The position numbers and the translations under genes are program-made. Of a DNA stretch of 23,413 bases, positions 6,349 to 21,082 are shown in pieces (within the stretch, counting starts at the first letter, position 1; every line of letters begins with the position of its first letter). The notes beneath the pieces are model-generated. The model had not been told where the DNA came from. It worked only from the letters and a program-made list of their open reading frames with translations, and searched no databases. The stretch comes from a virus. The stretch spans positions 1-23,413 of the IMG/VR virus record IMGVR_UViG_3300023174_000648; one strand, 5' to 3'.

Positions 6349-6794
6349 AGGTCTTGGCAATCGCTGTAGCCTTTTTATTGGTAACACCAAATGCAAATGC
6401 GGTGGACTATAAAACAGCGGCAGCAAGAGTTCCAAAAGATCAGGTTGCTTATGCAAAATGCATTAGTCACCACGAATCTAGAGGGAACTACAAAGCAATA
6501 GGAGATCAGTCTTCCGCACGAGGACGATGGCAATTCTTAGATGATCAGTGGAGACGCGGATTATCTTTCATGGTTGCAAACAGATTAGTAGATTATGGAA
6601 TGCCAAAGTCTAAGACTAAGAAGCTGGTGAAACACCTGCAATCAAAGTCCATAGATACATGGGAACCGATCTACCAAGATGTAGGATTTGTAGCAGCGTT
6701 GAACGCAAGATACCACTGGTCCGGTTGGACACATTGGGCGGTCAATTCTGAATGCAATGAACTAGTACCAACACCACTAAAACGAAAGGCATAA
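6345..6794 (+). CDS. Secreted Rpf/lysozyme-like transglycosylase
   Basis: Starting at CTG 6345 gives MKVLAIAVAFLLVTPNANA, an ideal secretion signal cut after ANA; a TTG at 6354 gives a shorter version without the Lys. The mature part has a CISHHESRGNYKAIG segment whose E44 is the expected catalytic acid, followed by SSARGRWQFLDDQW, the pattern of resuscitation-promoting factor/transglycosylase-like domains that cut peptidoglycan. C39 and a C-terminal Cys (NSECNE) could make the fold's disulphide. Length about 149 aa is usual for a single-domain enzyme. It lies in the regulatory/early part of the genome rather than with the holin, and could act on the host wall in lysis or during entry. The non-ATG start is inferred. 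Confidence 0.75.
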   Translation: MKVLAIAVAFLLVTPNANAVDYKTAAARVPKDQVAYAKCISHHESRGNYKAIGDQSSARGRWQFLDDQWRRGLSFMVANRLVDYGMPKSKTKKLVKHLQSKSIDTWEPIYQDVGFVAALNARYHWSGWTHWAVNSECNELVPTPLKRKA

Positions 6795-6795
6795 A

Positions 6796-7131
6796 ATGTC
6801 AGAAACCGCCAGGGAATGGTTTGAGCCACGCCAATTATCTTTATTGGCCGATCCAATTGATGAACAGTTTAACAAGTTTCATCATCAGAATCCGCACATC
6901 TATCGTCAATTAGTTGATCTAGCATACCAATGGAAAAATGCTGGACATGATATTTGTTCGATAGATTTGCTGATTAACAAACTAAGATGGGAAATTGGTA
7001 TCCGTTCAACGGGGGACCAATTTGCTATATCAAACAACTACGCCAGTCGTTACTCAAGACTCATTGAGGCAAACGAAAAAGATCTTGCTGACTTCTTCAC
7101 TAAGAGAACATTGAAGAGCTCATGGGACTAG
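6796..7131 (+). CDS. Conserved phage protein of unknown function
   Basis: 111 residues. Central pattern F-N-K-F-H-H-Q-N-P-H-I-Y-R-Q-L-V-D-L-A, K-x-A-G-H-D, S-I-D-L-L-I-N-K-L-R-W-E and N-N-Y-x-S-R-Y-S-R-L is a family found in many phages of diverse bacteria next to recombination or HNH genes. It is all-alpha by eye. The role is unknown. The start has an AAAGG site, and the AACCGCCAGG element lies inside the first codons. It overlaps the following nuclease gene by ten bases. Confidence 0.75.
   Translation: MSETAREWFEPRQLSLLADPIDEQFNKFHHQNPHIYRQLVDLAYQWKNAGHDICSIDLLINKLRWEIGIRSTGDQFAISNNYASRYSRLIEANEKDLADFFTKRTLKSSWD
6804..6813 (+). repeat. AACCGCCAGG repeat inside a coding start
   Basis: Exact core at codons 3-6 of the gene at 6796, just downstream of its ATG rather than upstream. 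Confidence 0.7.
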
Positions 7132-7892: not shown

Positions 7893-8427
7893 GAACTATG
7901 TAGATGTACCACAAAGAATTAAACTGTTTTATGAGAAGTATCCAGATGGTTCATTGCAAATGGATCCTGATCTGCAATTTCAGACAGTTGGAGATCAGAT
8001 CATTGTGATTGGTAGAGCTTACGCTTACCGTCATCCTGGAGATGAAAAGCCTGGCATTGGCACAGCTCAAGAGTATTTACCAGGAAAAACTAATTTTACT
8101 CGTGGTAGTGAGATCCAAAACCTTGAGACAAGTTGCTGGGGCAGAGCAATCGGAGCTTTAGGCATAGGCATAGATAAAGCAATTGCAAGTAAAGAAGAAG
8201 TTGAACTTGCAATGGAACGCAACAAACCAGAAAAGGTAATGATGAAACGTGCAAATCCTGGTCTGAAGCAAATAGTAGAGTTGCTAGGAACACAAGGCAT
8301 CACGGAGAAGGATGCGATCCTAGCGGCAGTACGCGGTCTAATAAACCGTGAAATAAGTTCGAGCAATGAACTAACTGATGATGAGATTGAACTCATCATC
8401 AAAAACCTGGCGGTTGTTGGTTCATGA
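7876..8427 (+). CDS. Single-strand annealing / ssDNA-binding protein
   Basis: 183 residues. The core (about 9-110) carries V-P-Q-R-I-K-x-F-x-x-x-Y-P-D-G-S, then A-Y-A-Y-R, P-G-x-G-T-A-Q-E and S-E-I-Q-N-L-E-T-S-C-W-G-R-A-I-G-A-L-G-I-G, the pattern of phage annealases/ssDNA-binding proteins in actinophages. The segment TSCWGRALGALGIG is the strongest mark, as in Erf/Sak-like proteins. The C-terminal third is helical and charged and probably helps oligomerise. It forms a likely pair with the upstream nuclease. Exact subfamily (Erf, Sak, RecT) cannot be told by eye. Confidence 0.65.
   Translation: MDKRLENYVDVPQRIKLFYEKYPDGSLQMDPDLQFQTVGDQIIVIGRAYAYRHPGDEKPGIGTAQEYLPGKTNFTRGSEIQNLETSCWGRAIGALGIGIDKAIASKEEVELAMERNKPEKVMMKRANPGLKQIVELLGTQGITEKDAILAAVRGLINREISSSNELTDDEIELIIKNLAVVGS
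8406..8415 (-). repeat. AACCGCCAGG repeat, minus orientation, in coding sequence
   Basis: CCTGGCGGTT on the + strand, in the last codons of the annealase-like gene and nine bases before the dCMP deaminase start. It is the last copy found in the window. Confidence 0.6.
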
Positions 8428-8849
8428 CTCGAATGTCTTGGGACAAATATGGATTGGAGATTGCGAGAGCAGCCTCCTATCGCAGTGAAGATCCATATCT
8501 AAAAGTCGGTGCATGTGTTCTACGCGGGGACAGAAGCATAATAAGCATTGGCTACAATGGGGCTGCGCCTGGCGTCGATATTCCTTGGGGAGATAGAGAC
8601 GCTAGGCGCGGTTTTGTAATACACGCAGAGGTGAACGCATTGCGGTATTGCACACCAGATCAAACAAAGGGTGGATATTTGTACGTGACTCATCACCCTT
8701 GTTCTGAATGCATAAAAGTAATCGCCAGTTATGGAATTGCAAATGTTATGTATTCTGATTTGATAGATGTAGCAATTTACGATCTATCTTCAATTGCCGA
8801 ATTGGCAAAAGTTTTTAACATTTCATTGAAACAGGAGGTAAGACAATGA
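8424..8849 (+). CDS. dCMP deaminase
   Basis: 141 residues of the zinc-dependent cytidine/deoxycytidylate deaminase family. The catalytic motif is H67-A-E69, and P92-C93-x-x-C96 supplies the other two zinc ligands. An N-terminal V-G-A-C-V-L-R and G-Y-N-G-A-A-P-G-V region matches the nucleotide-binding loops. The enzyme converts dCMP to dUMP, the substrate of thymidylate synthase. It starts at an ATGA overlap and ends in another, opening the coupled nucleotide operon. In a pathway that uses dCMP as substrate it may balance dCMP and dUMP. Confidence 0.9.
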   Translation: MTRMSWDKYGLEIARAASYRSEDPYLKVGACVLRGDRSIISIGYNGAAPGVDIPWGDRDARRGFVIHAEVNALRYCTPDQTKGGYLYVTHHPCSECIKVIASYGIANVMYSDLIDVAIYDLSSIAELAKVFNISLKQEVRQ

Positions 8850-9277
8850 GTTCATTACAAATGATTTTGGACAATCAAAGAAAATTGCAGTTAAAATCCT
8901 ATGGAGTAGATGTATCTACTTTAGACGGAGAAGAAAGAGCAGCGTACATTCGAGATATGTCTTTGGCATTAACAGATGAACTGCATGAAGCATTAAATGA
9001 AACCGGTTGGAAACCATGGGCAACAAGTAGGCATCTAAACAGAGCAGCTTTTGCTGGAGAAATGATTGACGTTCTGCATTTCTGGGTTAATTTAATGCTA
9101 GTTGCAGGAGTAACTGAACAAGATATTCTTGATCTTTACTTTGCAAAGGCAGATAAAAATGCTAAGCGTCAGCTGAATGGGTATGACGGTGTCGATGGTA
9201 AGTGCAAAACTTGTGGACGAGCATTTGATGATGGTGCCGTTCTCTGTACTCCAATTGCTTGCGAACACATAGAATGA
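8846..9277 (+). CDS. Dimeric dUTPase-like (MazG-fold) pyrophosphatase with C-terminal zinc knuckle
   Basis: 143 residues. The all-alpha NTP-pyrophosphatase signature is present: E-L-H-E-A-L-N-E at about 45-52 and E-M-I-D-V-L-H-F at about 72-79 (ExxE and ExxD), with the W-K-P-W between them as in dimeric dUTPases; Y-x-x-K-x-x-x-N-x-x-R-Q-L-N-G-Y-D closes the domain. A four-Cys tail (C-K-T-C-G then C and C-E-H) is added, which most dUTPases lack. Family members hydrolyse dUTP or dCTP to the monophosphate, and T4 gp56 of the same fold does both. Here it could supply dCMP/dUMP and keep the unmodified triphosphate low. Substrate is inferred. Confidence 0.8.
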   Translation: MSSLQMILDNQRKLQLKSYGVDVSTLDGEERAAYIRDMSLALTDELHEALNETGWKPWATSRHLNRAAFAGEMIDVLHFWVNLMLVAGVTEQDILDLYFAKADKNAKRQLNGYDGVDGKCKTCGRAFDDGAVLCTPIACEHIE

Positions 9278-10272
9278 AATACGTTCTAGATGATGTAGTA
9301 ACATCTTTCACTGATCGTATCGCTAGCCATAGATCTGCTTGGCCTCGTATGCAAAAATGCATGGTCGATGATGCTCTTAATACTAAATCTGAAATTGCTT
9401 TTGGCAATGATCAGCTTGTTAAAGAGGACACATGGTTAGTATCAAGTCCTATGGAATTCAAAGGTGAAGTCTTTAATTTATTTGGCGGTTATACAAAAGA
9501 GACTCGAGACAGAATTGCTAGAGTTCTTGACATGGATCTTGCCAAGATCAAGGCTTTGGATATGCCTGTTGGTGACATCGAAAGAATTCTTCGTCCACGT
9601 GCAGCAAAGACTGATTTTGACTTTACAGAAGCAGAATGGTCAAAGATTCGTGATCTAATGAAATGTGAAGTTATTAAGCATGAAGATCTTGTGCTAGACA
9701 TTCAGCGAGTAGTTATTGGTGACTCACACTCAATTTCAAGATACCGAGCAAACACGGTGGTTTATCGTCATGATGGTTTAACGCTTCACGGTTTAACCGA
9801 ACGAGGAGTTGAACCTTATCTTCCTGATTACTTTGTGCCACACTTGGTTATTTACGCAGGAAATGTAGACATAAGACATCATTTGTGCAGACAACTAGAT
9901 CCTGAAGGTTCAGCACGTAGGTTAATCAGTAACCTTAGAATGCACCTTGAACATATGCAACAAAAGGGAAAAATAGGCACATTTGAAGTTACTGCGCCTT
10001 ATCCAATTGAGTTTGAAGATCGCAAGATTCCAAAAACAGGATTTTACAAAGGTACAGCTTTTTATGGATCTCATCCTTCAAGAGACAGAGTCCGTCAGAT
10101 CATGACTAACGAGATGAAGTATCAGTTTGACAATGTTCACGAATGGCCAACTAATTGGTACATGATTGATCCAGAAGATTATGCAAAGACATATATGGAA
10201 AAACCTGGATCAGTCCATCTTTCACCTGAGTTCTATGAATGGGATTTGGTTAATAATGCCGCAAATAACTGA
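9274..10272 (+). CDS. SGNH-hydrolase-like protein in the nucleotide operon
   Basis: 332 residues from the ATG at 9274 (ATGA overlap). The first 140 are helical, with an LRPRAAKTDFDFTEAEW stretch, and of unknown type. From 145 the sequence shows R-V-V-I-G-D-S151-H-S (block I of SGNH hydrolases), an I-Y-A-G-N197-V-D-I-R-H-H (block III-like), and a late G-S-H267-P-S-R-D near 265-271. These give a plausible Ser-Asn-His arrangement. In the superfamily they form esterases, acetyltransferases and glycan-modifying enzymes. Its setting beside a pyrophosphatase, a PLP enzyme, a kinase and a thymidylate-synthase homologue suggests it acts on a modified nucleotide or its sugar/acyl donor rather than on a cell surface. 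Not certain. Confidence 0.5.
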   Translation: MKYVLDDVVTSFTDRIASHRSAWPRMQKCMVDDALNTKSEIAFGNDQLVKEDTWLVSSPMEFKGEVFNLFGGYTKETRDRIARVLDMDLAKIKALDMPVGDIERILRPRAAKTDFDFTEAEWSKIRDLMKCEVIKHEDLVLDIQRVVIGDSHSISRYRANTVVYRHDGLTLHGLTERGVEPYLPDYFVPHLVIYAGNVDIRHHLCRQLDPEGSARRLISNLRMHLEHMQQKGKIGTFEVTAPYPIEFEDRKIPKTGFYKGTAFYGSHPSRDRVRQIMTNEMKYQFDNVHEWPTNWYMIDPEDYAKTYMEKPGSVHLSPEFYEWDLVNNAANN

Positions 10273-11308
10273 AACCATCTACTGGGAAGATTTTAAGAAA
10301 TACTACGATAAAGCTGCAGTCTTGCAAAACATAAACATTGCAAGTCAGGGCGGTCGTGATACTTCTGAAGATCTGCATGTTGATGATCCATTGCAGCATC
10401 ACATTACTATCTACGATACAGTAGATCGTGAATTTGCTGGATTTAGCAATGCAATTCAGCAGATTTGGTATGGGTCAAATAATCCAAAGAAGTGGCAAGT
10501 TGATAGTCGTTTTGATGGTTACAACTTACACACAATGGATTGGTTTTATCTCTTCATGATCCATAGAGTGACTGGATCTGGCGCTTCGTTTAGTTATGAC
10601 CACGGATTTAGAAACAGCATACTTTCTGATATGGCTCTTAAGACAGATAACATGATTCATATGAGAAATTACGTGTTAAGTGAAATGAGAACCGGTCGTC
10701 CAATTTTTACAAGTATTGGTAATCAGATTCCACAATTTCCTAAACCTAATACAGAATATCCACGTGGATCTCAGCTTTACATTTCAGAATACATGCCTCA
10801 TTTGGTTAAAGATTTCTACACTCATTTATCCTACAATCCATTGACGATGTCAATTAGAGATGGAGTTGATTGGATCAATGAGTGGCACAAATCTCAAGGT
10901 CTTAAGTGTTTCCATTTTGTAATGACAGCATTTGTGATGGATGTTGCTCAATATTTCCCTACATTGATAGATCCATGGAGTCAAGTAAACTATGGAAGCA
11001 ATGCAATTAAAGCTTTGAACTTATTGTTCAAGAACGAAGGTTATAAGCAAAAAGACTTTTTAGATGCTGCAATGGAGATCATCTGCAATGAGTTTAGATC
11101 TCCTTATGATCCACGTGACCATGAAAGAAACCTAGGCAAAGGATTAAGTTTAGAAGATGTTGCATGTGATTATGTACGATACGTTGAATGTTATGTACCA
11201 AAAGGTTATGAACATTTAGAACCATGGCAAGTGACAAATAAGTCTTTAATTCCTCACCATGCAAAACATTGGACATACCACAAACACTTGGAGGCTAAAA
11301 ATGTTTAA
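10256..11308 (+). CDS. Helical protein resembling aGPT-PPlase / HMU-kinase helical domain
   Basis: 350 residues from ATG 10256, which lies in the end of the previous gene; the frame runs further upstream but only inside that gene. The layout recalls the helical family linked to thymine hypermodification (alpha-glutamyl/putrescinyl-thymine pyrophosphorylase and the helical part of 5-hydroxymethyl-dU kinase): D-D-P-L-x-x-x-x-T-I-Y-D-T-V-D-R-E-F (43-60) like the DPIL-NVyRelD segment; H-R-V-T-G-S-G-A-S-F (103-112) near D-H-G-F-R-N; and F-V-M-D-V-A-Q-Y-F-P-x-x-I-D-P, V-N-Y-G-S-N-A-I-K-A-L (226-253) like the D-L-x-x-T and G-P-G-A-x-R-G-L segment. The family transfers amino compounds to activated pyrimidines in DNA. 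Assignment is by recalled pattern and should be tested. Confidence 0.45.
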   Translation: MPQITETIYWEDFKKYYDKAAVLQNINIASQGGRDTSEDLHVDDPLQHHITIYDTVDREFAGFSNAIQQIWYGSNNPKKWQVDSRFDGYNLHTMDWFYLFMIHRVTGSGASFSYDHGFRNSILSDMALKTDNMIHMRNYVLSEMRTGRPIFTSIGNQIPQFPKPNTEYPRGSQLYISEYMPHLVKDFYTHLSYNPLTMSIRDGVDWINEWHKSQGLKCFHFVMTAFVMDVAQYFPTLIDPWSQVNYGSNAIKALNLLFKNEGYKQKDFLDAAMEIICNEFRSPYDPRDHERNLGKGLSLEDVACDYVRYVECYVPKGYEHLEPWQVTNKSLIPHHAKHWTYHKHLEAKNV

Positions 11309-12188
11309 GATAACTACAGACTCTTCAAGTAAGTATTCACATCGGCACAGAGATCAATGGTTAAAACTTGCTGGTGATTGGACGGATGAAACTCAATCGC
11401 CAAATATAGGTACATTTCACGGAGCAACAATTTGGGATGATTCTGTTACTGGAGTCGGTACCAAAGGTCGATGGGGTGATCTTCTAGTCAAAACTATGGA
11501 ATCAGATCATTTAGTTTATGTACAACCTAGAGTTGGTTGGGCAGGAGTTTCACTGGCAGCTCTTGCAAAGAAATATAACAAAAAGTTAACATTGTTCATG
11601 CCTTCCTCAAAAGTGGTCAGTGACCATCAATTAGTTTGCATTGAAAGAGGAGCAAATCCGATCTTTCGAAGAATCGCAGCAATGCCAGTTCTGAACAAAT
11701 ATGCCAAAGATTGGGCAGAACAAAATAATGCTCAATTTGTGCCATTTGGTTTAGATCATCCCCTAGTTGTTGCGGCAGGAGTCAAATCTACAATCCAACA
11801 ATGGGGAGATCGAGATGAACCAAGAGATGTTGTATCAGTTATTAGTACAGGAGTTCTCACGAGAACTCTCCAAATTGCTTGGCCAAATGCAACCTTCCAC
11901 GGAATTGCAGTTGCAAGAAACTTGCATCCGGGAGAAATCGGAAGAGCGGACGTTACAACTTACCATAAAGCTTTCAGAGAAAAAGCTGAGTATGCAGACA
12001 AGATCAACGAGGAAATCAACTCCGCACCAACGTACGATTGCAAAGGTCTAGAAAGATTTATGTTGGACAAAACATCTGCTCCTAAAACACCTTCAACTTT
12101 ATTGTGGAATGTGGCAGGTGACGTAAAACCAGTTATAATGGACCATTCACAAGTTGATAGTTTCAGAGAATGGGGTGAGTTTAGATGA
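11301..12188 (+). CDS. PLP-dependent enzyme, tryptophan-synthase-beta/ACC-deaminase fold
   Basis: 295 residues, ATG 11301 with a GGAGG site nine bases upstream. G-V-G-T-K55-G-R-W-G-D-L-L places a Lys where ACC deaminase and D-cysteine desulfhydrase bind pyridoxal phosphate; V-Q-P-R-V-G-W-A-G-V-S-L-A-A-L-A-K-K-Y-N-K-K-L-T-L-F follows as the helix and strand after the substrate loop. A later S-T-G-V-L-T-R-T-L segment is the phosphate-binding glycine loop position, though the run of Gly is thin. The fold II enzymes eliminate or deaminate amino acids. Phage copies beside base-modification genes are known from thymine hypermodification (phage M6). Here it likely makes or uses the amino compound of the modification. 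Confidence 0.65.
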   Translation: MFKITTDSSSKYSHRHRDQWLKLAGDWTDETQSPNIGTFHGATIWDDSVTGVGTKGRWGDLLVKTMESDHLVYVQPRVGWAGVSLAALAKKYNKKLTLFMPSSKVVSDHQLVCIERGANPIFRRIAAMPVLNKYAKDWAEQNNAQFVPFGLDHPLVVAAGVKSTIQQWGDRDEPRDVVSVISTGVLTRTLQIAWPNATFHGIAVARNLHPGEIGRADVTTYHKAFREKAEYADKINEEINSAPTYDCKGLERFMLDKTSAPKTPSTLLWNVAGDVKPVIMDHSQVDSFREWGEFR

Positions 12189-12628
12189 TTACAATCATTG
12201 AAGGTTCTGATGGAACAGGTAAAACAACTTACGCTCAAAAGTTAACTGAACGATACAATGCACAATATTTGCATGCTGAACAACCTAGATCTAGATTATG
12301 GGTTGATGAATACATTCGACCTTTAACTTCTAGCAACATGGTATTAGATCGATGGCATTTAGGTGAAGTTGTATGGCCAAAGATCTATGGAAGAGTATCA
12401 TTGTTTGATGAAACAACATTTGATTATTGCAATTGGGAACTTGCTAAACTAGGAGCTAGGTTAATCCTATTAACAAGATCAGAAGATGCAATAGCTGAAG
12501 AATTGTTAAGACGAGGTGAAGAACTACAGATTGATGCTGTATTGCATTCAAGATCTTTATTTGTAGAAGCTTTTAGACAAGTAAAATATTTAGACAAGAC
12601 AATAATCCATAGTGAGGTGGTTAGGTAA
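12185..12628 (+). CDS. Deoxynucleoside monophosphate kinase (thymidylate-kinase-like)
   Basis: 147 residues. P-loop GSDGTGKTTYA at residues 7-17, a D-R-W-H-L-G-E-V-V-W-P segment matching the DR(Y/W)-x-x-(S/G) nucleotide-binding motif, and a lid region with R-G-E-E-L near 115. The enzyme would phosphorylate a dNMP, which in a modification pathway means the modified monophosphate made by the synthase next to it, as T4 gp1 does for hydroxymethyl-dCMP. It is shorter than cellular thymidylate kinase (about 210 aa), which is common in phages. Coupled by ATGA on the left and TAATG on the right. Confidence 0.8.
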   Translation: MITIIEGSDGTGKTTYAQKLTERYNAQYLHAEQPRSRLWVDEYIRPLTSSNMVLDRWHLGEVVWPKIYGRVSLFDETTFDYCNWELAKLGARLILLTRSEDAIAEELLRRGEELQIDAVLHSRSLFVEAFRQVKYLDKTIIHSEVVR

Positions 12629-13437
12629 TGCATATAATTACAGAAAATCCAAGCGAAGCTTTAGAGTTAGCAACTCAATATGTAATTGAGCATGGTGAAG
12701 CAATATCTCCTCGTGGAATGGTCACTAGAGAACTTCTTAATGTGACTTTACAAATCGAAAAGCCATGGAACATACCTGTATCTATGGAAAACCGTAAACT
12801 CAATCACAACATCGGTATTAAAGAAGCATTACAACTTGTTGGACAAGTCACTGATCCAGAAGCAATGACAGATACAAGTCAAGTTTTTGGAAAGTTTATG
12901 GATAATGGAATACTTCATGGTGCTTACGGTCCACGTATTCACGGTAATCTAAACAAAGTGGTTGATCAGTTAAAAAAAGATTACTCTACCAGACAAGCAG
13001 TACTAACCATATTTGACTCAAACAAAGATCTAAATGTCGATGTTAAAGATGTTCCATGTACATTAAATCTGCAGTACTTTATTAGAGACAATAAACTAAT
13101 TGCTAGAACAAACATGAGAAGCAATGATGTATTCCTAGGTCTTCCATATGATTTGACTCAGTTTATTGCTTTACAAGGAGCAATTGCAAAGGCTTTAGAC
13201 ATTGAAATGGGTCAGTACGTTCATGTTGTAGGAAGTATGCATATTTATGATGAACATATACCTCAAGCTCAATGGATCAAAGCATACTTTAATGGATCAT
13301 TCAAAGACTACGAACCTATGTGGACTGGTAATAGTATTGGTGAAATTAGTCATACCGCAAGATCTATTCTCAAAGGTAACATTCCTGAGGGTTTAACTCG
13401 CTTTGAAAGATTTTTGGCAGGTAAAATAAATGACTGA
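12628..13437 (+). CDS. Thymidylate synthase homologue, probable dCMP hydroxymethylase
   Basis: 269 residues with the thymidylate synthase landmarks: Y100 in HGAYGPRIHG, S-T-R122 (phosphate contact), P143-C144 (nucleophile), M-R164-S165-N-D167-V-F-L-G-L-P-Y174-D175 and M-H205-I-Y207. In E. coli ThyA the residue at the D175 position is N177, which selects dUMP. T4 dCMP hydroxymethylase has Asp there, and Asn/Asp swaps switch base preference. So D175 suggests that this enzyme uses dCMP and makes 5-hydroxymethyl- or methyl-dCMP. A classical dUMP role remains possible, since related actinophage proteins are annotated as thymidylate synthase. It ends in an eight-base overlap with the next gene. Confidence 0.8.
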   Translation: MHIITENPSEALELATQYVIEHGEAISPRGMVTRELLNVTLQIEKPWNIPVSMENRKLNHNIGIKEALQLVGQVTDPEAMTDTSQVFGKFMDNGILHGAYGPRIHGNLNKVVDQLKKDYSTRQAVLTIFDSNKDLNVDVKDVPCTLNLQYFIRDNKLIARTNMRSNDVFLGLPYDLTQFIALQGAIAKALDIEMGQYVHVVGSMHIYDEHIPQAQWIKAYFNGSFKDYEPMWTGNSIGEISHTARSILKGNIPEGLTRFERFLAGKIND

Positions 13438-19047: not shown

Positions 19048-19394
19048 TGACCGCTGGTATTTACAACACAACCATTGATCAAGGTTCTATTTGGTCAGTT
19101 GTATTAGTTTACACTGATTCGAATAATGTAGCCGTCAATTTAACTGGCTATACCGCGGCTATGCAACTGCGCCAGAACTATAATTCCGCAACTGCTGACC
19201 TTACTTTGACTACAGCTAATGGCGGAATCACTATTGTTGGTGCTACTGGAACTATTACAATTACTGCAACAGCAACTCAAACAGGTTTACTTGATTCAGG
19301 TCTTTATGTTTATGATCTTGAATTGACATCAGGTTCTAACATTTCTCGTCTTATCCAAGGTCAATTAACAGTTGCAGAGCAGGTGACACGATAA
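19047..19394 (+). CDS. Tail-associated beta-sandwich protein
   Basis: 115 residues from the ATGA-coupled ATG at 19047. Y-N-T-T-I-D-Q-G-S-x-W-S-V-V-L-V-Y and [14 protein letters not shown] near the N-terminus, G-T-I-T-I-T-A-T-A and [13 protein letters not shown] near the end, match a short all-beta structural family (similar to BppU-type baseplate/tail proteins) that is common beside tail fibre genes in aquatic phages. It is followed at once by the collagen-like fibre, so it may anchor that fibre. Which virion part it belongs to is inference. Confidence 0.65.
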
Positions 19395-21082
19395 TGACAG
19401 CCAATAAAGTCACCATTAACGAAACTAATAATACCGTTGATGTATCCGCTCCTGGTCCTCAAGGTGCATTAGGACCAACTGGTCCTACCGGTGCAACCGG
19501 CATTCAAGGTCCGACTGGATCTACCGGTCCTACCGGTTCTCAAGGAATTCAAGGTCCGACCGGTCCAACTGGAACTCAAGGAATTCAAGGCGTTACCGGT
19601 CCAACTGGAGCGCAAGGTGTTACTGGTCCTACCGGGCCGCAAGGAGTTACTGGTCCAACAGGACCAACAGGAGCTCAGGGAATTCAGGGTGTAACTGGTC
19701 CGACAGGACCGCAGGGCATTCAAGGTCCTACTGGACCTACAGGACCGCAAGGAATACAAGGCGCAACTGGTCCGACAGGACCGACCGGCGCACAAGGAAT
19801 TCAGGGAGTTACAGGACCAACTGGTCCGCAGGGTATTCAGGGTGTAACTGGTCCTACTGGTTCTACAGGCGCAGCATCAACCGTTACCGGACCAACAGGA
19901 TCTACCGGTCCTCAAGGAATTCAAGGCGTTCAAGGTATTCAGGGAATCCAAGGTCCTACTGGTCCTTTAGGACCAACTGGATCTACAGGACCAACTGGAG
20001 CAGCTTCAACTGTGACAGGTCCAACCGGCGCATCAGGACCAACTGGTCCGCAAGGTGTTTCAGGACCAACAGGACCAACAGGATCTGCTGGTTTAGATGG
20101 AGATAGATACAAAACTACATCTACTACTTCACTATTAGTTGGCAATGGTACAAAAACTTTAACTACTGTTGATCTTAATTTAGATTATTCAGCATCTCAA
20201 AACGTTGTAATCTCATATGACATAAACAACACTATGCGTGGCGAAGTTGTTTCATATAATGGAACTACTGGCGTTCTAGTTGTAACTATTACTAAACATA
20301 CCGGTTCTGGAACTTATACATCTTGGCAAGTTAATTTAGATGGATCAGTTGGTATTCAAGGCGATACAGGTCCAACCGGTCCAACTGGCGCAACAGGAAT
20401 TCAAGGATCAACAGGTCCAACCGGTGCGATCGGTGCAACTGGTCCTACAGGTTCAACTGGCTTAACTGGAAATACAGGACCGACCGGTGCACAAGGCATT
20501 CAGGGAATCCAAGGTGTGCAAGGAATTCAAGGAGTAACCGGTCCAACAGGTCCGCAAGGACAAACTGGACCGACAGGTGCTCAAGGTATTCAAGGAGACG
20601 TTGGTGGAACTGGACCGACTGGTCCGCAAGGAATCCAAGGATCTACAGGACCGACAGGTCCGCAGGGAAACCAAGGTGTCCAAGGAGTAACCGGTCCAAC
20701 GGGTCCACAAGGAATACAAGGTCCTACAGGACCGACTGGTCCGCAAGGTATTCAAGGAATTCAAGGTGTGACAGGTCCTACAGGATCCCAAGGTGTTCAA
20801 GGACCCACTGGACCTCAAGGAGATCAAGGAATTCAAGGTGTTACCGGCCCGACCGGCGCACAAGGAATTCAAGGTCCTACTGGAACAAGCGGTCCTACAG
20901 GAGCATCTGGACCTACAGGAGCAACAGGTCCTACAGGATCCCAAGGTGCAGATAACCCAGTTGTTGATTATCTTGATGGTGGTAATGTTGCAAATACCGA
21001 CATTATTTATGATGCAGGATCATCAACTACTTCATCTTGGACTTACACAATTGACGCTGGCGGGGCGACAGTAACCTTCTAA
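19394..21082 (+). CDS. Collagen-like tail fibre protein
   Basis: 562 residues, TAATG overlap. After about 20 residues come Gly-X-Y triplets, mostly G-P-T, G-P-Q, G-I-Q and G-V-T, to about residue 235. A non-collagen module follows (about 236-317, [16 protein letters not shown], all-beta), then a second collagen stretch to about 517, and a short C-terminal beta segment ending G-G-A-T-V-T-F. Phage collagen-like proteins form trimeric stalks in tail fibres. The triplets are dominated by GPTGPT, with Thr in the third place often, where collagens use Pro or Hyp. Bacterial collagens use Thr for stability without hydroxylation. The DNA is highly repetitive, so it may vary in length between relatives. 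Confidence 0.93.
19448..20947 (+). repeat. Tandem Gly-X-Y coding repeats
   Basis: Short imperfect repeats of GGTCCNACNGG-type units (coding Gly-Pro-Thr/Gly), in two blocks split by the non-collagen module at about 20095-20345. Codon choice is mixed (GGT, GGA, GGC; CCT, CCA, CCG), so the DNA is diverged even where the protein is nearly identical. The repeats are coding and not CRISPR-like: there are no spacers. They could recombine. Confidence 0.85.

Follow-up and report, generated by a model that had tools for sequence, protein, structure and literature searches.

A seven-gene viral operon with a conserved SGNH, helical and PLP-enzyme module and its possible role in hydroxymethylcytosine hypermodification

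Which base of its DNA might an uncultured virus alter, and with what group, when nucleotide enzymes and three proteins of another kind are encoded together in one operon? We addressed this question for positions 8424-13437 of the IMG/VR virus record IMGVR_UViG_3300023174_000648, the 23,413 bases of which (positions 1 to 23,413) constitute the window analyzed here. An earlier note on this DNA had suggested that seven coupled genes there may serve hypermodification of a pyrimidine through a gene combination not recognized from described systems, a reading that is now well supported. All seven open reading frames (ORFs) lie on the plus strand, with successive overlaps of 4, 4, 17, 8, 4 and 1 bp, and a synteny search, which the note had proposed, showed that more than 40 IMG/VR contigs carry the entire block with its gene order kept (identity 58-99%), a recurrence far above chance expectation. 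We consider it likely that 5-hydroxymethylcytosine (5hmC) in the viral DNA is hypermodified jointly by an SGNH-hydrolase-fold protein (P0003, here p3), an all-helical protein (P0004, here p4) and a pyridoxal 5′-phosphate (PLP) enzyme (P0005), probably with an amino-acid-derived group.

The probable identity of the modified base follows from the last gene of the operon. P0007 (12628..13437) belongs to the thymidylate synthase (TS) superfamily (Pfam, 1.8e-22), and its best PDB match is the CMP 5-hydroxymethylase MilA (6e-21), with the best thymidylate synthase at 3e-16 and others weaker. Its residues Cys144-Thr145 and Asp175 correspond to positions 146, 147 and 177 of the Escherichia coli TS, and the Cys-Thr pair, the NMRSND motif, the Asp and the VGSxHxY motif are common to P0007 and T4 gp42. 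Among the 33 distinct homologues of the synthase that accompany the p3/p4/PLP genes, none departs from Cys146, Thr147 and Asp177. The same residues occur in gp42 of the Aeromonas phages 44RR and 25 and in the second synthase encoded by large marine phages; as an internal control, the 44RR genome also encodes a canonical ThyA, and this has Cys-His and Asn at these positions. Asp at position 177 was tied to cytosine substrates by MetaGPA and by older mutagenesis, with position 147 as a second discriminating site in MetaGPA (PMC8670742). Because the synthase homologue carries the dCMP-type Asp, its substrate should be a cytosine nucleotide; P0007 is very probably an enzyme of the deoxycytidine monophosphate (dCMP) hydroxymethylase type, which would make hydroxymethylcytosine, and not a thymine derivative, the handle base, and its product is predicted to carry a hydroxymethyl rather than a methyl group. 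Hypermodification of thymine through 5-hydroxymethyluracil was considered and ruled out, as Asp stands at position 177 in 33/33 synthase homologues. Thus, where the earlier note had invoked the logic of both T4 and the phages phiW-14, SP10 and M6, the T4-like nucleotide steps stand, but the likeness to the other three phages does not.

The remaining nucleotide enzymes were assigned by Pfam and PHROGs profile searches, which confirmed the deaminase, the MazG-fold dUTPase and the TS homologue named in the note. The dCMP deaminase (dCMP to dUMP; 8424..8849) matches PF00383 (1.6e-19) and phrog_174, dCMP deaminase (1.7e-37), and the MazG/dUTPase_2-type pyrophosphatase (8846..9277) matches PF08761 (9e-14) and phrog_18650, dUTPase (7e-35). 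By analogy with T4 gp56 the latter would be a dCTPase-dUTPase, the dCTPase activity being suggested by its context. P0006 (12185..12628), proposed earlier as a deoxynucleoside monophosphate (dNMP) kinase, is a P-loop, thymidylate-kinase-like protein with a weak match to Thymidylate_kin (3.3e-05, below the cut-off) and one to phrog_761 (1.5e-07); it fits the T4 gp1 type and is probably a hydroxymethyl-dCMP kinase in the gp1 role. A 5-HMUDK-type DNA kinase was also considered for P0006 and rejected: apart from a 27-residue P-loop stretch, no relation was detectable to the P-loop kinase that the ViI-like phage phiMAM1 encodes beside its amino acid:DNA transferase (ADDT) gene. Judged by homology, which is strong for the steps that would lead to 5hmC in DNA, the nucleotide half of the operon mirrors T4 genes 56, 42, 1 and cd.

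The middle of the operon is occupied by an independent, conserved module of three genes, so that the SGNH, PLP and helical proteins singled out in the note are a real set. By profile-guided scans of IMG/VR we collected about 190 relatives of p4, and 25 representative loci were compared. All 25 encode p3 and p4, and 23 encode the PLP enzyme, the remaining two (L187, L255) ending just after p4. The genes are arranged as p3-p4-PLP, p4-PLP-p3 or p3-PLP-p4, and in a single case (L237) p3 and p4 are fused; this shuffled order, together with their retention, indicates one function that requires all three. Within about 8 kb of the module a synthase was present in 17 loci, a deaminase in 13 and a kinase in 9, and several further loci have a synthase elsewhere on the contig. 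As only p3, p4 and the PLP enzyme are constant, these three, and not the kinase, are taken to be the decorating core. The module comes from freshwater, marine and soil phages. A search of genome_contigs with p4 gave one match, a Gallionella metagenome-assembled genome contig (JAQTYN010000017.1, L277) that encodes p3, p4, PLP, kinase, TS and dCMP deaminase together, and there the module region is probably phage or prophage sequence. In a single contig (L015/L068) the right half of the operon (PLP-kinase-synthase) lies in inverted orientation with a split PLP gene, which may reflect an assembly fault or chimera, or a real inversion.

Neither p3 nor p4 matched any family in the Pfam search. For p3 (9274..10272), earlier described as SGNH-like, the AlphaFold model is of high quality (predicted local distance difference test, pLDDT, 88.7; predicted template modelling score 0.88), and its best PDB matches are SGNH/GDSL esterases (probability 1.00), in agreement with that description. 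Ser151, within GDSHS, is conserved in 49/49 sequences, Asn197 in 48/50 and His315 in 50/51, and a step of acyl transfer or hydrolysis is the natural guess.

Aeromonas T4-like phages and large marine phages also encode p3 homologues, at 27-41% identity. The homologue of the Aeromonas phages 44RR and 31 (ORF233c) is a fusion in which the p3 domain precedes a C-terminal domain that is 41% identical to marine proteins scoring above the Pfam HMUDK_hel cut-off, and in the marine phages an HMUDK_hel gene lies about 3 kb downstream of p3, with genes for a myo-inositol-1-phosphate synthase, an FkbM methyltransferase and a MazG-like protein between or beside them. Both the PLP enzyme and p4 are absent where p3 accompanies HMUDK_hel in these two groups. 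The p4 family was not found in 44RR, phage 25, PTm1, phiMAM1 or three large marine phages; in the genomes and loci tested, HMUDK_hel was not found where p4 is present, nor p4 where p3 accompanies HMUDK_hel. Beside p3, each of the two fills the same slot. The marine loci (L129, L150 and others within L121-L158) also contain a small HAD-like gene and a second dCMP-type synthase, and these phages may possibly carry an inositol-bearing hydroxymethylcytosine. Immediately 5′ of p3 in marine phages (L129, L150:6691-6966) stands a small MazG/DUF6378-looking gene, similar in size to a DUF6378 gene at 1546-1812 of the window. The p3 homologue adjoins a UDP-galactopyranose mutase and a gene without assigned function in phage 25 (L002:3776-7047), and a sodium:solute symporter in 44RR (L001:4408-8388); these neighbours hint at a sugar or polyol substrate.

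The PLP gene (11301..12188) has a weak Pfam match to PALP. Its PDB profile matches, to cysteine synthase (6e-05) and to the O-phosphoserine sulfhydrylase CysM (4e-04), and an invariant lysine agree with the fold type II predicted in the note: Lys55, kept in 42/42 sequences, aligns with the Schiff-base lysine of the CysM KDR motif. The TSGNT loop, which in cysteine synthases binds the carboxylate of the free amino acid, is not present, and PRVGWAG occupies its place; this replacement points to a substrate that is altered or bulky, and perhaps bound to DNA. Relatives of the PLP enzyme were seen in Erythrobacter phage ZS04 (L003:2326-4764) and Microcystis phage Mae-JY30 (L004:8378-10696), in one of them as an insertion that divides into two halves an N6/N4 DNA methylase gene, the product of which is ParB-like at its N-terminus, and in the other adjoining ParB-like genes; these are fold-type II PLP enzymes in another DNA-modification context.

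The helical protein p4 (10256..11308) carries the signature motifs HRxTGSG, DHGxRN, FTSxGNQ and LEDVxCD, and its AlphaFold model is all-helical. When this model (mean pLDDT 56, core about 80) was compared with BFVD, the top match was an ADDT domain-containing protein (E 9e-10, 25% identity over 379 columns), and ranks 4, 5, 6 and 11 went to a second ADDT-labelled protein (rank 4, E 3e-3), the 5-hydroxymethyldeoxyuridine DNA kinase of SP10, and the HMUDK_hel proteins of phiRSL1 and phiW-14. ADDT- and HMUDK-type proteins are expected to be few in BFVD, and their grouping among the top matches is therefore unlikely to be due to chance. A resemblance to enzymes of thymine hypermodification, as claimed in the note, is thus upheld by a fold search with a model of moderate confidence, but not by sequence profiles: the comparison with the Pfam HMUDK_hel and ADDT families that the note had recommended gave no membership by hidden Markov model (HMM), and a place for p4 in these or any other Pfam family was not supported. 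Neither the p4 nor the HMUDK_hel profile matched a solved structure. As sequence profiles give no support, we liken p4 to these proteins in function, suggesting on the basis of its modelled fold that it may work like an ADDT/HMUDK_hel-type protein, and claim membership of neither family.

Taken together, these data suggest the following pathway. The MazG-type enzyme would lower dCTP and dUTP, P0007 would convert dCMP to 5-hydroxymethyl-dCMP, and the small kinase P0006 would phosphorylate the latter, with the host nucleoside diphosphate kinase finishing hydroxymethyl-dCTP, which would then be polymerized into phage DNA, while the deaminase would supply dUMP for dTMP synthesis. At the DNA stage p3, p4 and the PLP enzyme would jointly act on 5hmC. 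Here p4 would most likely be the DNA-engaging transferase that sets an amino-acid-derived group on the 5-methylene, in the place held by HMUDK_hel in phages with p3 but without p4; the PLP enzyme may supply or process the amino acid via beta-elimination or replacement, and p3, as a Ser-His SGNH enzyme, may acylate, de-acylate or otherwise trim the adduct. The gene set, its linkage, the dCMP type of the synthase and the SGNH and PLP folds are established by sequence and structure. That the module acts on DNA, that the adduct is of amino-acid nature and that the steps take this order is what we infer. Hypermodification of 5hmC by the three proteins is argued for by the operon structure, their co-occurrence and the p3-HMUDK_hel fusion; the amino-acid origin of the adduct, to which the PLP enzyme and the fold neighbours of p4 point, is the least certain step. 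The 5-HMUDK of the thymine pathway is inactive on 5hmC in DNA (PMC6457204), as would be expected if enzymes of a separate family are required.

Several results weigh against this pathway. The p4 model is of moderate quality. The HMUDK_hel HMM (PF18723) was matched by none of 24 diverse p4 proteins, and the ADDT HMM (PF18724) found no match in the window or its relatives, with phiMAM1 as positive control at 4.6e-59. Aligned by hhalign with HMUDK_hel and ADDT, p4 (effective number of sequences, Neff, 1.4 to 3.4) gave no significant score; the test is a weak one, since under the same setting ADDT does not score significantly against HMUDK_hel. In p3 the block-V Asp three residues before the His is replaced by G, R, Q, K, S or N. 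Neither a DNA kinase nor any other activating enzyme accompanies the module throughout, and four diverse queries found p4 in no cultured phage of the collection searched. To these is added a GT-B glycosyltransferase (PF00534, 2e-13) in a full-length relative of 37,354 bases (L282), possibly the real modifier of hydroxymethylcytosine.

Such an enzyme, encoded elsewhere in the genome, could finally decorate 5hmC with a sugar as in T4, the three middle genes preparing or trimming this sugar group or serving another process, and the neighbours of p3 homologues (UDP-galactopyranose mutase in Aeromonas phage 25, myo-inositol-1-phosphate synthase in marine phages) would suit it. However, the L282 gene lies in the structural-gene region, its distance from the operon on the linear contig exceeding 20 kb; phages with little else in common have kept the p3/p4/PLP module together with TS; and known hydroxymethylcytosine glucosylation has no role for a fold-type II PLP enzyme. 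We regard this explanation as rather unlikely. Modification might also be finished on the free nucleotide, with p3, p4 and the PLP enzyme acting on hydroxymethyl-dCMP or hydroxymethyl-dCTP before polymerization, as their sharing an operon with the nucleotide enzymes would allow. This is unlikely, as the fold neighbours of p4 act on, or are assigned to, polymerized DNA, and the p3-HMUDK_hel fusion in 44RR suggests a DNA substrate. It is very unlikely that P0007 is instead a dCMP methyltransferase of the XP12 type, which makes 5-methylcytosine, and that the three genes act on another handle. The Asn177Asp change alone was reported to switch an E. coli-type TS from dUMP to dCMP, yielding 5-methyl-dCMP (PMC8670742), yet the closest solved homologue of P0007 is the hydroxymethylase MilA, its CT, NMRSND and VGSxHxY motifs are those of gp42, and 5-methylcytosine would offer no hydroxyl for further modification.

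Beyond hypermodification of 5hmC by the module, a wider proposal may be made, tentatively and with somewhat less than even confidence: that a widespread system of uncultured phages converts 5hmC in their DNA to an amino-acid-bearing hypermodified cytosine, an undescribed base, by means of p4, as a new family of helical DNA transferases, together with an SGNH enzyme and a PLP enzyme of fold type II, and that the p3-HMUDK_hel fusion is the corresponding hydroxymethylcytosine modifier of Aeromonas T4-like phages. If true, such an enzyme set would represent new chemistry, and the base would likely serve evasion of restriction and other DNA-targeting defence, with a possible use in enzymatic DNA labelling.

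Other features of the sequences were observed in passing. The studied record carries a WhiB-like gene along with phage genes, and its host is therefore likely actinobacterial. The window also encodes a protein with a proteasome-subunit-like Pfam match (9e-06; 1809-2405), here in a phage genome, and a collagen-like repeat protein of several hundred residues (19394-21082). In L282 the GT-B gene and a GT-A-like gene without Pfam match (10879-11979 and 6394-7101) stand among structural genes, and inspection of its larger ORFs showed neither a DNA polymerase nor a second thymidylate synthase.

How does the operon compare with known systems? The plan of making a hydroxymethylpyrimidine and then decorating it is already known, while the enzyme set is new and the base probably so; no paper in the literature searched combines these enzymes, and existing annotations call relatives of p3 and p4 hypothetical or assign them no function. 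With the T4 pathway (gp42, gp56, gp1, cd) the operon shares the hydroxymethylase signature, a dCTPase/dUTPase-type enzyme, a dNMP kinase and a dCMP deaminase, but it has the SGNH, helical and PLP trio in place of a glucosyltransferase, Pfam having found none of the alpha or beta type in the operon. Amino-acid hypermodification is known for thymine-derived bases, and the thymidine systems of ViI, M6, SP10 and phiW-14 employ 5-HMUDK, amino acid:DNA transferase, aGPT-PPlase and PLP enzymes. Our operon resembles these in that a helical protein, the modelled fold of which may be ADDT/HMUDK_hel-like, adjoins a PLP enzyme and a TS-family hydroxymethylase; the operon differs in its cytosine-type synthase, its fold-type II PLP enzyme, its SGNH enzyme and the lack of a fused 5-hydroxymethyldeoxyuridine DNA kinase, and p4 fails the Pfam ADDT and HMUDK_hel models. 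The 5-carbamoyloxymethylcytosine system found by MetaGPA (PMC8670742) likewise comes from environmental phages and has a TS homologue with Asp177 and dCMP deaminase and MazG-like neighbours, whereas Pfam detected no carbamoyltransferase in our operon. In the CmoA/CmoX/CmoY carboxymethylcytosine system (PMC12783734) an amino acid, glycine, is also attached to a cytosine handle, but the handle is made by a methyltransferase on DNA, the attachment by an amide ligase, and no genes are in common. Also comparable is ORF233c of the Aeromonas phages 44RR and 31 (phrog_17781, unknown function), the N-terminal half of which is a p3 homologue (33% identity) in a phage that has gene 42; where the operon has separate genes for p4 and the PLP enzyme, ORF233c has a C-terminal half of the HMUDK_hel family. 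Phages 44RR, 31 and 25 encode the dCMP hydroxymethylase and no known glucosyltransferase, and a 2010 review left undecided whether such phages modify hydroxymethylcytosine further (PMC2993671). The 44RR ORF233c is a concrete candidate for what, if anything, does so in these gene-42-positive phages, and since the Aeromonas p3-HMUDK_hel phages are cultured, this half of the proposal is directly testable.

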